The translations under genes were made by a program, and so were the position numbers. The notes beneath the pieces were generated by a model. It saw nothing but the letters and a program-made list of their open reading frames with translations, was not told the origin of the DNA and did no database searches. A stretch of 35,341 nt of DNA from Candidatus Liptonbacteria bacterium. Its GTDB lineage: Bacteria > Patescibacteriota > Minisyncoccia > UBA6257 > 2-01-FULL-56-20. Position 1 is the first letter of the stretch. Each line of letters starts with the position of its first letter. Shown here piece by piece: positions 4,975 through 30,642 of the stretch. The stretch lies in contig JAHFLJ010000004.1 in assembly GCA_023244935.1 (NCBI GenBank), positions 9,694-45,034 of the forward strand, read 5' to 3'.

Positions 4975-4987
4975 GTGGGATTTTTTT
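4958..4987 (+). terminator. Terminator of the JAMM gene
   Basis: CCCACC (4960-4965) pairs with GGTGGG (4974-4979), followed by ATTTTTTT. The stop codon lies in the loop. Confidence 0.85.
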
Positions 4988-5073
4988 CCCGATTCGTATC
5001 GCGACGAAGTCGAGATTAACGAATCGAGGATCCTCGATATTTATATTTCGCTTTGCGAAATTAAATATCGGGA
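4987..5073. repeat. Double-hairpin palindromic element, copy A (87 bp)
   Basis: Begins TCCCGA, ends TCGGGA, and has the central palindrome TCGAGGATCCTCGA (5024-5037). The left arm folds on itself (CGATTCGT with ACGAATCG) and so does the right arm (CGATATTTA with TAAATATCG). Same architecture as the copies at 5309-5381 and 7555-7596, though the arm sequences differ. Confidence 0.8.
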
Positions 5074-5204
5074 TAACTATTTGCAGTAGCGCCAAGTTAT
5101 CGACATTAACCGCAGGCGAAGCCGAGGTTTAAATGTCGGAATCCCGCAAAGCGGGAGGGAATAATCTCCCGACCCCACCTTTTGTCCGATTCCCCCCTAA
5201 ACAT
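5074..5204. other. Non-coding stretch with hairpins and tRNA-Glu-like scraps
   Basis: No gene is seen. It contains a hairpin of GATAACT with AGTTATC enclosing GTAGCGCCA (5086-5094, identical to the tail of the neighbouring tRNA-Glu), an inverted repeat CGACATTAA/TTTAAATGTCG, TCCCGCAAAGCGGGA, and GTCCGATTCCCCC (5184-5196), a plus-strand match to the T-arm of the minus-strand tRNA-Glu. The scraps are short and could be coincidental singly. Confidence 0.5.
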
Positions 5205-5249
5205 TACTAAAATAAAAATACCCCGCATAAGGGTATTTTTATTTTAGTA
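5205..5249. terminator. Long hairpin, terminator of the tRNA-Glu unit
   Basis: A 19-bp stem, TACTAAAATAAAAATACCC with GGGTATTTTTATTTTAGTA, around CGCATAA. Read on the minus strand it follows the tRNA-Glu copies and ends in a T-rich tract. It could also stop transcripts coming from the JAMM side. Confidence 0.75.
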
Positions 5250-5388
5250 GCGCCAGGGGGAATCGGACCCCCGTTCCCGCCGTGAAAGGGCGGTGTCCTA
5301 GCCACTAGTCCCGATTCCGTAAACGGAATCGAGGATCCTCGATTTTTCTATTCCGGCTATGCCAGGAATGAAAAATCGGGAACGATGG
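5248..5388 (-). pseudogene. tRNA-Glu pseudogene split by a 73-bp palindromic element
   Basis: Positions 5247-5308 are identical to the intact tRNA-Glu over 62 nt (3' end through T-arm, anticodon arm and most of the D-arm). The identity stops at CCACTAG. It resumes with ACGATGG at 5382-5388, directly after the palindromic element at 5309-5381. Joined, the halves recreate CCACTAGACGATGG of the intact gene, with no visible target duplication. Beyond ACGATGG the acceptor half is not conserved (TTTGCC instead of CGCC), so it could not pair with its 3' half. Confidence 0.85.
5309..5381. mobile_element. Double-hairpin palindromic element, copy B, inserted in tRNA-Glu pseudogene
   Basis: 73 bp, TCCCGA at one end and TCGGGA at the other, with the core TCGAGGATCCTCGA at 5329-5342. 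Left hairpin: CGATTCCGT with ACGGAATCG. Right hairpin: CGATTTTTC with GAAAAATCG, enclosing a smaller hairpin (ATTCC with GGAAT). Comparison with the intact tRNA shows a clean insertion, so this family moves or has moved. It encodes no protein and would need help from elsewhere. Confidence 0.75.
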
Positions 5389-5416
5389 TTTGCCATCAAT
5401 TTGTAAGTTTACCTTG

Positions 5417-5488
5417 TAGCGCCAGGGGGAATCGGACCCCCGTTCCCGCCGTGAAAGGGCGGTGTCCTAGCCACTAGACGATGGCGCC
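5417..5488 (-). tRNA. tRNA-Glu (anticodon TTC)
   Basis: A full 72-nt cloverleaf on the minus strand: acceptor GGCGCCA with TGGCGCT (first pair G-U), D-arm GTCTAGTGGCTAGGAC, anticodon stem CCGCC/GGCGG around CTTTCAC (anticodon TTC), four-base variable loop, T-stem GGGGG/CCCCC, discriminator A. CCA is not encoded. The T-loop reads TCCGATT, giving C at position 55 where nearly all tRNAs have U (pseudouridine 55). The 5' end overlaps the last 15 nt of the GIY-YIG gene. Confidence 0.95.
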
Positions 5489-5728
5489 TTTATTTATCAA
5501 CTTCTCGATTGCTGTACGTTTTTTCCAGGATTTTATCTGCAATTCTCGCGAAAATGCCTCTTCTTTAGTCAGAAAATCTTCCGAATATATTAGTTTCCAT
5601 GGTAGGTAGGCTCTAGTTGACAAAACTCTACCTGCATTATGATAGCGCATCCGTTGCTCAAGGTCATGCGTTGACCCGATATAATATCTATTATTTTTCA
5701 AAGATTGTAAAATATAGACTCTATACAT
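5474..5728 (-). CDS. GIY-YIG domain protein (UPF0213/YhbQ-like)
   Basis: A single-domain GIY-YIG protein of 84 residues. MYRVYILQS and RYYIGSTHDLEQRMRYHNAG give the family's GIY (here VYI) and YIG tripeptides and the catalytic Arg; LPWKLIYSEDFLTKEEAFSRELQIKSW continues the typical small-protein pattern, with Glu as the likely metal ligand. This class is structure-specific or non-specific nuclease; the cellular role is unclear. The 3' end (GAIV, stop) lies within the first 15 nt of the same-strand tRNA-Glu, so the two are probably co-transcribed and tRNA processing would cut the message end. Confidence 0.88.
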   Translation of the reverse strand: MYRVYILQSLKNNRYYIGSTHDLEQRMRYHNAGRVLSTRAYLPWKLIYSEDFLTKEEAFSRELQIKSWKKRTAIEKLINKGAIV

Positions 5729-7554: not shown

Positions 7555-7596
7555 TCCCGATTCCGTAGGAATCGAGGATCCTCGACGAAGTCGGGA
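7555..7596. repeat. Double-hairpin palindromic element, copy C (42 bp)
   Basis: Shortest copy: TCCCGA at the left, TCGGGA at the right, core TCGAGGATCCTCGA (7572-7585), left hairpin CGATTCC/GGAATCG with a 3-nt loop, right hairpin CGAC/GTCG. It interrupts a TTCTAAATTCTA array, which continues on both sides. Confidence 0.8.
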
Positions 7597-9286: not shown

Positions 9287-9361
9287 TAAAATGAGAACAT
9301 AGAAAACAGAACCTAGAAAATAGAATAATTTCTTGATTTCATTCTAGATTCTAACAAAAAA
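9287..9361. repeat. TTCTA-type repeat upstream of four-helix-bundle gene 1
   Basis: AGAACATAGAAAACAGAACCTAGAAAATAGAAT, in pieces, then ATTCTAGATTCTAAC in the opposite orientation, giving a loose inverted repeat just before the start codon. Confidence 0.65.
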
Positions 9362-9703
9362 ATGCCCACCAATACTTTTAAGGATTTGATTGTATGGCAA
9401 AAAGCAAAAAATCTCGCAGTGAAGATATATCGATTAACCGGGAGTTTCCCAAGAACTGAAAGTTATGGATTATCAAGTCAGATGCAACGATCGGCAGTGT
9501 CGATTTCATCAAATATCGCAGAAAGTTATCATCGAAGGAGCAAAAAAGACAAAGATAAATTTATTTCGATAGCGTTTGGTTCTGGCTCCGAACTTGAAAG
9601 TCAGATAGAGATAGCAAAAGAATTGTATCCTGTGCTAGAATATAAAGAAGCAGAAAATCTGTTAGTCGAAACACAAAAAATATTAAACAAATTCCTGCAC
9701 TGA
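9362..9703 (+). CDS. Four-helix-bundle protein, 23S rRNA intervening-sequence (IVP) family, copy 1
   Basis: 113 residues matching the IVP family throughout: FKDLIVWQKAKNLAVKIYRLT, FPRTESYGLSSQMQRSAVSISSNIAES, GSGSELESQIEIAKEL. The fold is a homo-oligomeric four-helix bundle; family members are encoded in intervening sequences of 23S rRNA genes or as stand-alone genes, and the function is unknown. The usual AEG after SNI is AES here. It has a close paralogue at 12686, and both are bracketed by TTCTA-rich repeats, suggesting a duplicated or mobile cassette. No SD is present. Confidence 0.9.
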   Translation: MPTNTFKDLIVWQKAKNLAVKIYRLTGSFPRTESYGLSSQMQRSAVSISSNIAESYHRRSKKDKDKFISIAFGSGSELESQIEIAKELYPVLEYKEAENLLVETQKILNKFLH

Positions 9704-12579: not shown

Positions 12580-12685
12580 GATAGAACATAAAACCAAGAA
12601 TTTAGAAAATAGAATAAAACAGCAATGCCACCTTCTAATCTTCCTTCTAAATTCTATGTTCTAAGTTCTAGCTTCTAACCAAGAG
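12580..12685. repeat. TTCTA-type repeat upstream of four-helix-bundle gene 2
   Basis: AGAACATA, AGAATTTAGAAAATAGAAT, then TTCTAAATTCTATGTTCTAA and GTTCTAGCTTCTAAC. Same two-orientation layout as upstream of the first paralogue. Confidence 0.7.
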
Positions 12686-13027
12686 ATGCCCACCAATACC
12701 TTCAAAGATTTAATAGTGTGGCAAAAAGCGAAAAGTCTAGCAGTGGAAATATATAGAGTAACAAATGATTTTCCAAAAAATGAAACGTATGGATTATCAA
12801 GTCAGACGCAGAGAGCGGCAGTGTCGATTTCATCAAATATCGCAGAAAGCCATCACCGGAGAAATAAAAAAGATAAAGATAGATTCATTTCAATAGCGTA
12901 TGGCTCTGGTCCTGAGTTGGAAAGCCAGATAGAAATAGCTAAAGAGTTGTATCCTATGTTAAAATATAAAAAAGTAGAGAATCTACTAGTCGAAACAATG
13001 AAAATATTAAACAAATTCCCAAACTGA
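12686..13027 (+). CDS. Four-helix-bundle protein, IVP family, copy 2
   Basis: 113 residues, collinear with the protein at 9362 and sharing most residues (MPTNTFKDLIVWQKAK at the start, ESQIEIAKELYP near the end). Differences are scattered, many at third codon positions, so the duplication is not recent. Repeats and start context are also shared, indicating that the duplicated unit included the flanks. Function is unknown, as for the family. Confidence 0.9.
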   Translation: MPTNTFKDLIVWQKAKSLAVEIYRVTNDFPKNETYGLSSQTQRAAVSISSNIAESHHRRNKKDKDRFISIAYGSGPELESQIEIAKELYPMLKYKKVENLLVETMKILNKFPN

Positions 13028-15786: not shown

Positions 15787-15830
15787 TACAAATGTATCGC
15801 ATAGCATATATGCTATGCGATACATTTGTA
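15787..15830. promoter_or_regulatory. Perfect 44-nt palindrome at the 3' side of XRE gene 1
   Basis: TACAAATGTATCGCATAGCATA directly abuts its exact reverse complement when split at 15808/15809. It begins one base past the regulator's stop codon. Its centre ATAGCATATATGCTAT is shared with the palindrome over the regulator's start region (16145-16174). Candidate operator for the downstream leader/15307 unit, a terminator stem, or both. Confidence 0.7.
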
Positions 15831-15831
15831 G

Positions 15832-16140
15832 CTAGGATAAAGTTATTTCAACTTTCTTTCCGAGAATTTTAGCTATCTTTTCTAAATTCTTAATTCGAAT
15901 ATTGTGTTTGCCGGATTCGATTCGGGCTATTACGCTTTGATATGTTCCGAGTCTCATTCCAAGTTCTCTCTGAGAAATAGCCATATCTCTCCTTGATTGT
16001 GATATGAGCAGTCCAATCTCGGCACAAATTCTGTCAATCGATTTTTTAGTCGGCTTTGCGGAATTTCCGATTTGCCTCCGGATATATTCCAGTTTCTCTT
16101 CGTCGGTATATTTTCTAAATGGTCGGTGATATGATGGCAT
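15832..16140 (-). CDS. XRE-family helix-turn-helix regulator, copy 1
   Basis: 102 residues from the ATG at 16140. The C-terminal half is an XRE/Cro-type HTH: IGLLISQSRRDMAISQRELGMRLGTYQSVIARIESGKHNIRIKNLEKIAKILGKKVEI. The N-terminal half starts MPSYHRPFRKYTDEEKLEYIRRQIGNS and is shared with the second regulator at 30267, defining a specific subfamily. An in-frame ATG six codons upstream (16158) lies inside the palindrome and is less likely. With the palindrome covering the promoter, autoregulation is the simple reading. It may be the antitoxin-like part of a pair, but no toxin-like partner is recognised. Confidence 0.85.
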   Translation of the reverse strand: MPSYHRPFRKYTDEEKLEYIRRQIGNSAKPTKKSIDRICAEIGLLISQSRRDMAISQRELGMRLGTYQSVIARIESGKHNIRIKNLEKIAKILGKKVEITLS

Positions 16141-16144
16141 AAAA

Positions 16145-16174
16145 GTATCATATAGCATATATGCTATATGATAC
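16145..16174. promoter_or_regulatory. Perfect 30-nt palindrome over the start region of XRE gene 1
   Basis: GTATCATATAGCATA followed by its exact reverse complement, ending 4 nt upstream of the regulator's ATG and overlapping its likely -10. It also lies 40 nt upstream of the divergent proS start. It shares the ATAGCATATATGCTAT core with 15787-15830. Confidence 0.75.
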
Positions 16175-16213
16175 AGTGTTGCACGTTGTGCATTATATGT
16201 TAAATTTAAACAA

Positions 16214-30098: not shown

Positions 30099-30127
30099 AT
30101 TTCTGAATAATACCAAGAGCGATCCAC

Positions 30128-30161
30128 TTCTACCTCATATCATGCATGATATGAGGTAGAA
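30128..30161. promoter_or_regulatory. Perfect 34-nt palindrome upstream of XRE gene 2
   Basis: TTCTACCTCATATCATG joined to its exact reverse complement. It could terminate truB or be an operator; the same ATATCAT...ATGATAT core occurs at 30240 and 30601. Confidence 0.7.
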
Positions 30162-30239
30162 ATAATAAATCAAGTCAATAATTAATAGATAATAAGGTTC
30201 GTTGCCACCTCTCGATAATTTAACAGTGTCGCTTGCCTC

Positions 30240-30255
30240 ATATCATTAATGATAT
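30240..30255. promoter_or_regulatory. Operator-like palindrome at the start of XRE gene 2
   Basis: ATATCATTAATGATAT, preceded by CCTC as in the longer copies, lies 11 nt upstream of the chosen ATG where the -10 is expected. Confidence 0.65.
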
Positions 30256-30266
30256 ACAATAACTTC

Positions 30267-30581
30267 ATGCCATCACTTCAAAGAAGGTTTAAGCCATATA
30301 CCGCAGAAGAGAAGCGGGAATACATAAAAAGAAAATACGGAAATTCGAGCCACAAAGCGGCGAGCGCGAAGCCGGGTAATATAATTTGCGTTGAGATTGG
30401 CAAGGAAATAAGAAACCTAAGATTGGGTGCTGGAATATCTCAACGAGAGCTGGGAATGCGCCTCGATACGTATCAGTGTTCAATATCTAGGATTGAAAAA
30501 GGGAGCGAGAATTTTAAAATTCAAAGTCTTGAAAGGATTGCTAAAGAATTTAATAAAAAGATCAAAATAATTTTTTATTAG
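30267..30581 (+). CDS. XRE-family helix-turn-helix regulator, copy 2
   Basis: 104 residues from the ATG at 30267; an ATG six codons earlier lies inside the palindrome, exactly as for the paralogue at 15832. The N terminus MPSLQRRFKPYTAEEKREYIKRKYGNS and the HTH (IGKEIRNLRLGAGISQRELGMRLDTYQCSISRIEKGSENFKIQSLERIAKEFNKKIKI) follow the paralogue closely, but recognition-helix residues differ (TYQCSISRIEKG against TYQSVIARIESG). This matches the different palindrome core here. It sits alone between truB and tgt, bracketed by palindromes. Confidence 0.85.
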   Translation: MPSLQRRFKPYTAEEKREYIKRKYGNSSHKAASAKPGNIICVEIGKEIRNLRLGAGISQRELGMRLDTYQCSISRIEKGSENFKIQSLERIAKEFNKKIKIIFY

Positions 30582-30600
30582 TAAGCTAAATACTTCTGAA

Positions 30601-30642
30601 TATATTTTACCTCATATCATGTATGATATGAGGTAAAATATA
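30601..30642. promoter_or_regulatory. Palindrome downstream of XRE gene 2
   Basis: TATATTTTACCTCATATCAT, a GT centre, then the reverse complement; 20-bp arms. It starts 19 nt after the regulator's stop and precedes tgt. It may act as a terminator stem and a binding site. Confidence 0.7.

Follow-up and report, generated by a model that had tools for sequence, protein, structure and literature searches.

A palindromic element in a partial tRNA-Glu copy beside a GIY-YIG nuclease gene of a Candidatus Liptonbacteria genome

An interrupted tRNA-Glu copy next to an intact gene

In a Candidatus Liptonbacteria genome, a copy of tRNA-Glu is interrupted by a 73-bp palindrome close to an intact gene for the same tRNA. 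This raises the question of what was inserted, by which route, and why into a tRNA sequence. The window analysed here is the whole stretch of 35,341 nucleotides around the locus (C14:9694-45034), part of an assembly of 712 kb in 31 contigs. The partial copy and the intact gene are identical over 62 nt (5247-5308, minus strand, tRNA nt 12-73, versus 5416-5477). The partial copy reaches CCACTAG, is followed by the 73-bp insert (5309-5381) and resumes with ACGATGG (5382-5388, minus strand, tRNA nt 5-11) as in the intact gene, much as an initial annotation had described it. Beyond ACGATGG the copy diverges, and it therefore comprises tRNA nt 5-73 (7 + 62 nt) and not a whole gene. Because the insert starts with T and ends with A, the flanking G and A forbid sliding and only a single placement of the junction is possible; there is neither a target duplication nor a loss of bases. 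The seven nucleotides are not a chance match, because family copies reuse the exact tRNA-Glu position: GGCGCCATCGT^CTAGTG in another tRNA-Glu fragment of the same genome (C14:8942-9013) and GGCCTCATCGT^CTAATGG in a relative (L254).

ARAGORN called a single tRNA-Glu(TTC), at 5416-5488 on the minus strand, and no other gene with this anticodon was found in the genome. This tRNA gene overlaps a gene for a single-domain GIY-YIG nuclease of 84 aa (5474-5728, minus strand; PF01541, E 5.5e-18), whose final codons GGC GCC ATC GTC TAG double as the opening 15 nt of the tRNA. Two further elements of the same palindrome family lie in the window, one of 87 bp in the same tRNA neighbourhood (4987-5073; C14:14680-14766) and a short form of 42 bp within TTCTAAATTCTA-type repeats (7555-7596), which is also present at C10:17879 and C30:14139. 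A perfect, terminator-like 19-bp inverted repeat (5205-5249) follows the partial copy, and the T-arm of the tRNA recurs in inverted form (GTCCGATTCCCCC; 5184-5196, plus strand) as a further tRNA-derived fragment. In an Rfam search over the region, the tRNA itself was the sole entry reaching the cut-off.

A second recurrent tRNA-derived structure is found on the 3' side of many tRNAs (5085-5250 in the window; L378, L200, L199, L205, L215) and combines a terminator-like hairpin, an inverted T-arm copy, a GGTGGGGTCGGGGAA-like stretch and a repeat of the tRNA's 3' terminus. Elsewhere in the window, long perfect palindromes of the TCATATCATGCATGATATGA type (15790-16175 and 30126-30637) flank two small helix-turn-helix genes and are probably their operators. 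A surface-protein cluster contains two copies of a four-helix-bundle gene (9342-9703 and 12666-13027; 81% identical) that by eye resemble the 23S rRNA intervening protein.

The palindrome family and its target

As a single strand, the insert (TCCCGA-TTCCGTAAACGGAA-TCGAGGA abutted to TCCTCGA-TTTTTC..GAAAAA-TCGGGA) folds into two tandem hairpins, one with a bulged A and the other with a bulged T, at -25.2 kcal/mol compared to -9.3 kcal/mol for shuffled sequences (z -8.0). By units it consists of two inverted copies of TCCCGA-arm-TCGAGGA, and the family pattern is TCCCGA-arm-TCGAGGATCCTCGA-arm-TCGGGA. The core TCGAGGATCCTCGA occurs exactly nine times in the genome, and the full pattern eight times versus none for a control read backwards. 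The full pattern was detected in 5 of 61 genomes (own and related), and a scan of 84,980 species revealed at least 117 further stretches. Among the matches listed, the named records were mostly Patescibacteria (Yanofsky-, Magasanik-, Staskawicz-, Sungbacteria and others) and Bacteroidota; Chlorobiota and Chloroflexi were each the label of a single record. No exact match was present in the viral contigs scanned, and viral carriage of this palindrome was rejected on that count. The arms are 4-34 nt long (34 being the upper limit of the pattern) and copy-specific in sequence; among arms of at least 9 nt, 91% self-pair at their ends. Ends and centre are fixed by the search pattern, and their conservation is therefore not an independent result. 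The 73-bp insert is best read as a mobile but non-autonomous palindrome that consists of two hairpin units in inverted orientation.

Some family members were seen in other settings. One element (L146 1501-1572; C5:2045-2116) adjoins a diverged partial copy of the 3' end of the EF-Tu gene, with the genuine end close by. In one Yanofskybacteria genome, three elements (L039 1661, L122 7610, L135 464) each occupy the middle of a long palindrome that contains a DnaA-box-like TTATCCACA.

The insertion target was analysed for 131 distinct insertions of the TCCCGA family. G was found at position -1 from one side or the other in 123 of them (both sides 41, one side 82, neither 8), and the two sides tend to exclude each other (Fisher P 1.5e-4), which speaks against a palindromic target. 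Oriented in this way, the consensus before the element is T(T/A)G, and the first, adjacent arm is the shorter one in 44 and the longer one in 18 of the 62 cases with unequal arms. The TAG before the element is host sequence and is present in the empty site. TCCCGA palindromes enter at TAG^ and CCTGCC palindromes at TA^G, in tRNA-Glu and elsewhere. Two further ideas about the target were rejected. Hairpin loops are not targeted as a general rule, since flanks form stems of at least 5 bp in 15 of 130 cases compared to 11.6 for re-paired flanks, and the three longest of these stems all represent one long palindrome. Nor were whole tRNA genes disrupted: after joining the sequences without the element, ARAGORN found a full tRNA in 0 of 140 cases, and the interrupted copies are therefore partial.

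IS200/IS605 elements recognise a short motif 5' of the insertion, make no duplication and carry hairpins near both ends. A directional target without duplication is as single-strand transposition of this type would give. The annotation had called the lack of duplication unusual for a transposase-driven event, and this was too strong, since IS200/IS605-type transposition also leaves none. What sets the locus apart from IS200/IS605 elements and their miniature derivatives (PMC8266576, PMC6006769) is that no tnpA was found here, that the element is nearly symmetric and that its target is T(A/T)G. A target-site duplication as in classical MITEs is lacking, and the junctions in other stubs are clean as well. 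With REPIN/BIME elements and their RAYT (TnpA_REP) transposases (PMC3116915, PMC8266576, PMC3733652) the TCCCGA element shares two inverted imperfect hairpins with bulged stems, the absence of a target duplication, dispersed copies and a non-autonomous nature. Unlike these, it begins with TCCC without a GTAG or CGTC tag at the hairpin foot, has the ends TCCCGA/TCGGGA and the centre TCGAGGATCCTCGA, has arms free in sequence and length, settles in partial tRNA genes and resides in a genome in which no RAYT was found. The profile PF01797 had no match in this genome but detected Y1 transposases in five control genomes. Y1_Tnp is present in 21 of 33 element-bearing genomes and absent in 12, and the Y1 loci retrieved from other genomes were free of the core motif TCGAGGATCCTCGA. 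The likeness to REP/MITE-type palindromes noted at the outset holds for form and dispersal; a RAYT/Y1 transposase was not detected in the host genome.

GIY-YIG genes, tRNA stubs and empty sites

At about 20 loci, an element lies inside a partial tRNA with the same tRNA intact within a few hundred bases. For 11 of 140 elements, a GIY-YIG open reading frame lies no more than 700 bp away, and it usually abuts the stub. The encoded protein is a catalytic domain only (PF01541), and its closest solved structures are UPF0213 BH0048 (1zg2), followed by SLX1. Y4, Y15, G17, R25, H29 and E61 are kept in 99-100% of 102 such proteins, predicting an intact active site as in homing endonucleases. In the genome studied, each of the five single-domain GIY-YIG genes lies next to a tRNA and has partial tRNA copies beside it. 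At two of these loci, exactly the same position of tRNA-Glu is occupied by a TCCCGA element. At the Phe locus, the D-loop holds a 43-nt palindrome and the T-loop of a 3' fragment holds a second palindrome. At the Gln locus, both flanking fragments are interrupted in the T-loop by two-hairpin palindromes, and the Trp locus has a 3' fragment only.

GIY-YIG genes were collected in two sets, one by protein similarity alone from this and 40 related genomes, blind to the palindrome, and one from 34 genomes picked for carrying the element. Of the 68 hits in the first set, 38 had a tRNA no more than 400 bp away; the strand was the same in 37 of these, and the tRNA most often lay 0-38 bp downstream of the nuclease gene. 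The related genomes are non-independent samples in these counts. Together the sets contain 39 distinct GIY-YIG genes with an intact tRNA downstream, in Patescibacteria and some Bacteroidota. In about 30 of the 39, counted by hand from a table, the nuclease gene is preceded by a stub of the downstream tRNA's isotype that is cleanly split by a strongly folding insert; matches of the stubs to tRNAs of other isotypes scored a median of about 12-13. The palindrome mostly ends 13-34 nt before the nuclease start. Insertion was in the D-loop in most stubs, in the anticodon loop in those of Cys (TCTG^CAAA; L259, L261, L264, L266, L321, L337) and Ser (CTC^GAA; L332), and in the T-loop in those of Gln (GTTC^GAA; L192, L260). 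The inserts belong to different families (TCCCGA, CCTGCCTGCCGGCAGGCAGG, CCACCGCC, 30-mers of two 6-bp hairpins); the sequences change from locus to locus, and the order of stub, palindrome, GIY-YIG gene and intact tRNA is constant. The median fold z upstream of the nuclease gene was -2.9 for tRNA-linked genes, -1.7 for other GIY-YIG genes and -0.4 for control windows. On the tree of these proteins, tRNA isotypes cluster (19 changes versus 26.5 when shuffled), with few alignment columns and many open forks. GIY-YIG genes were found in 31 of the 34 element-bearing genomes and absent from three, compared to 30 of 41 own and related genomes chosen regardless of the element. The recurrence of this arrangement across two phyla speaks for a mobile cassette that invades tRNA genes. 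It is of a kind not described in the papers searched, which contained nothing relevant on GIY-YIG genes with tRNA genes, palindromes or Patescibacteria. The pseudogene reading of the annotation was right in that the tRNA-Glu copy is interrupted; it had missed that this is a split-tRNA half beside a GIY-YIG gene, recurrent in tens of genomes.

Several loci bear on the origin of the intact tRNA. At L256, the stub GCGCAGG.. and a fragment ..CCTGCGC beyond the intact tRNA are the two ends of one tRNA-Tyr, and the intact tRNA-Tyr between them has a different acceptor stem (GCTGGGA..TCCCAGC); the cassette therefore brought a whole replacement tRNA. At L259 and L266, stub and intact tRNA-Cys are of two types with swapped roles. 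Identical 30-nt palindromes are present in the 5' and 3' fragments flanking GIY-YIG gene and tRNA at L260, and nearly identical ones at L264.

Empty sites were found at a sister locus: in most of the 30 genomes examined, tRNA-Glu(CTC) comes after murF. The tRNA is bare in many relatives. Genome G000 has a stub with a 72-bp TCCCGA palindrome, a GIY-YIG gene and the intact tRNA; G001 has the same order with a 20-bp CCTGCC palindrome; in G013, G015 and G040, the stubs hold palindrome-like inserts and a GIY-YIG gene is absent, and G020 has a short stub. The occupied sites carry different palindromes, and thus the same tRNA-Glu(CTC) gene was invaded repeatedly. Occupied and empty alleles at one site are as predicted for a homing endonuclease. 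The clean before-and-after view given by the annotation, and the empty site for which it proposed to look in related genomes, are seen in two ways, in the adjacent intact tRNA-Glu(UUC) and in the bare murF-linked genes.

Across the genome studied (712 kb), regions no more than 500 bp from a tRNA account for 5.2% of the sequence, and they hold 12 of 28 CCTGCC 20-mers and 4 of 9 TCCCGA cores. Against an assumed share of 25%, the excess is significant for CCTGCC (P 0.03) and not for TCCCGA, and it partly reflects the intergenic nature of such regions. Each anticodon was found once among the 39 tRNA genes. Almost half of these genes are nevertheless accompanied by partial copies of the same tRNA no more than 500 bp away; for tRNA-Lys(CTT), nt 1-35 lie upstream and nt 36-74 downstream of the intact gene. 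Partial copies also flank many tRNAs that have no GIY-YIG gene today, which are either remains of lost cassettes or a sign of another origin.

How the locus may have arisen and what it means

We lean towards the reading that the interrupted copy is the displaced remainder of a tRNA-Glu, left behind by a cassette of GIY-YIG gene and replacement tRNA, and now hosts a mobile palindrome. A selfish cassette, in which the nuclease gene is fused to a complete tRNA, would arrive at the resident tRNA-Glu gene and split or duplicate it, so that the tRNA of the cassette would now be the sole working copy. The cassette would be mobile as a unit, its nuclease opening tRNA genes for it, and would repeatedly invade them. 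The palindrome would land 3' of T(A/T)G on one strand without duplicating its target, most likely as folded single-stranded DNA with an enzyme acting in trans. Non-autonomous palindromes would settle in displaced tRNA halves, or help to make them; redundancy of the stubs, or cutting by the nuclease, may be the reason why they fill with palindromes. Both the enzyme that moves the palindromes and any causal tie between palindrome and nuclease are what we infer from the arrangement. The nuclease may not be the cause, because many tRNAs with partial copies, and some palindrome-bearing murF stubs, have no GIY-YIG gene. It also counts against the cassette that displaced and replacement tRNA can be identical, as here, which leaves the escape of the working copy unexplained.

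The arrangement resembles known systems in part. Like free-standing GIY-YIG homing endonucleases (SegA type) and the intron-borne I-TevI, the gene lies by its presumed target with occupied and empty sites; unlike them, the protein has about 85 aa with the catalytic domain only, there is no intron and a replacement tRNA is carried. Rickettsia palindromic elements insert in frame into proteins. They too are palindromes inside genes, but by description they belong to another phylum, and here only non-functional copies were struck. Integron attC sites fold into imperfect, bulged palindromes beside small open reading frame cassettes; by eye, the palindromes here have no attC boxes.

A closer bond between palindrome and nuclease is conceivable. 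The palindromes could be a working part of the cassette, marking the insertion point in the tRNA loop or protecting the stub from re-cutting, with solitary copies as footprints of lost cassettes. The near-universal palindrome in the stub, its nearly fixed spacing to the nuclease start, the reuse of one tRNA position per isotype (as in Cys and Gln), the matching palindromes in both flanking fragments of L260 and nearly so of L264, and the murF stubs with palindromes and no GIY-YIG gene would fit. We nevertheless consider this rather unlikely, as sequence-unrelated families fill the same role, the exact insertion nucleotide seems to be set by the palindrome family (TAG^ for TCCCGA, TA^G for CCTGCC), many palindromes lie far from any tRNA or GIY-YIG gene, and the nuclease is missing in three element-rich genomes. 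Somewhat easier to entertain, though still doubtful, is a single mobile system, in which the nuclease would open tRNA loops, the cassette with its substitute tRNA would land there, and palindromes of any family would seal or mark the cut.

At the other end, the palindromes could be opportunistic REP/MITE elements spread in trans by a RAYT-like Y1 transposase since lost here, the stubs being tolerated, hairpin-rich targets. The bulged two-hairpin form, the short one-sided target without duplication and the frequency of Y1_Tnp in element-bearing genomes argue for this. However, the missing Y1 gene and tag and the Y1 loci without core motif speak against it, and it would not explain why about 30 of 39 GIY-YIG-linked stubs carry a palindrome, given only 9 TCCCGA cores and 28 CCTGCC 20-mers in 712 kb; we hold it to be an improbable account, on a par with the palindrome as a cassette part. 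Palindromes could also have grown without an enzyme, where breaks in redundant tRNA fragments were mended by template switching or foldback; this would suit the several unrelated families at shared tRNA sites and the arms varying between copies. Ends and centre identical in distant phyla, clean junctions and a directional target motif make it quite implausible. Least credible by far is an artefact of metagenome assembly or binning: the named element-bearing records among the matches listed are mostly MAGs and masked N runs occur near some tRNAs, but the same architecture is found in dozens of separate assemblies from two phyla, with empty sites in others.

Few places in a genome should be less tolerant of insertions than single-copy tRNA genes. 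A cassette that breaks such a gene and supplies a substitute in return would account for the many tRNA fragments scattered around tRNA genes in these reduced genomes, and would give a role to the many small GIY-YIG genes of Patescibacteria. With dozens of natural before-and-after pairs, target choice and the order of events become testable by comparison alone. If nuclease, substitute tRNA and palindromes did form one system, essential tRNA genes would be recurrent homing sites in Patescibacteria and Bacteroidota.
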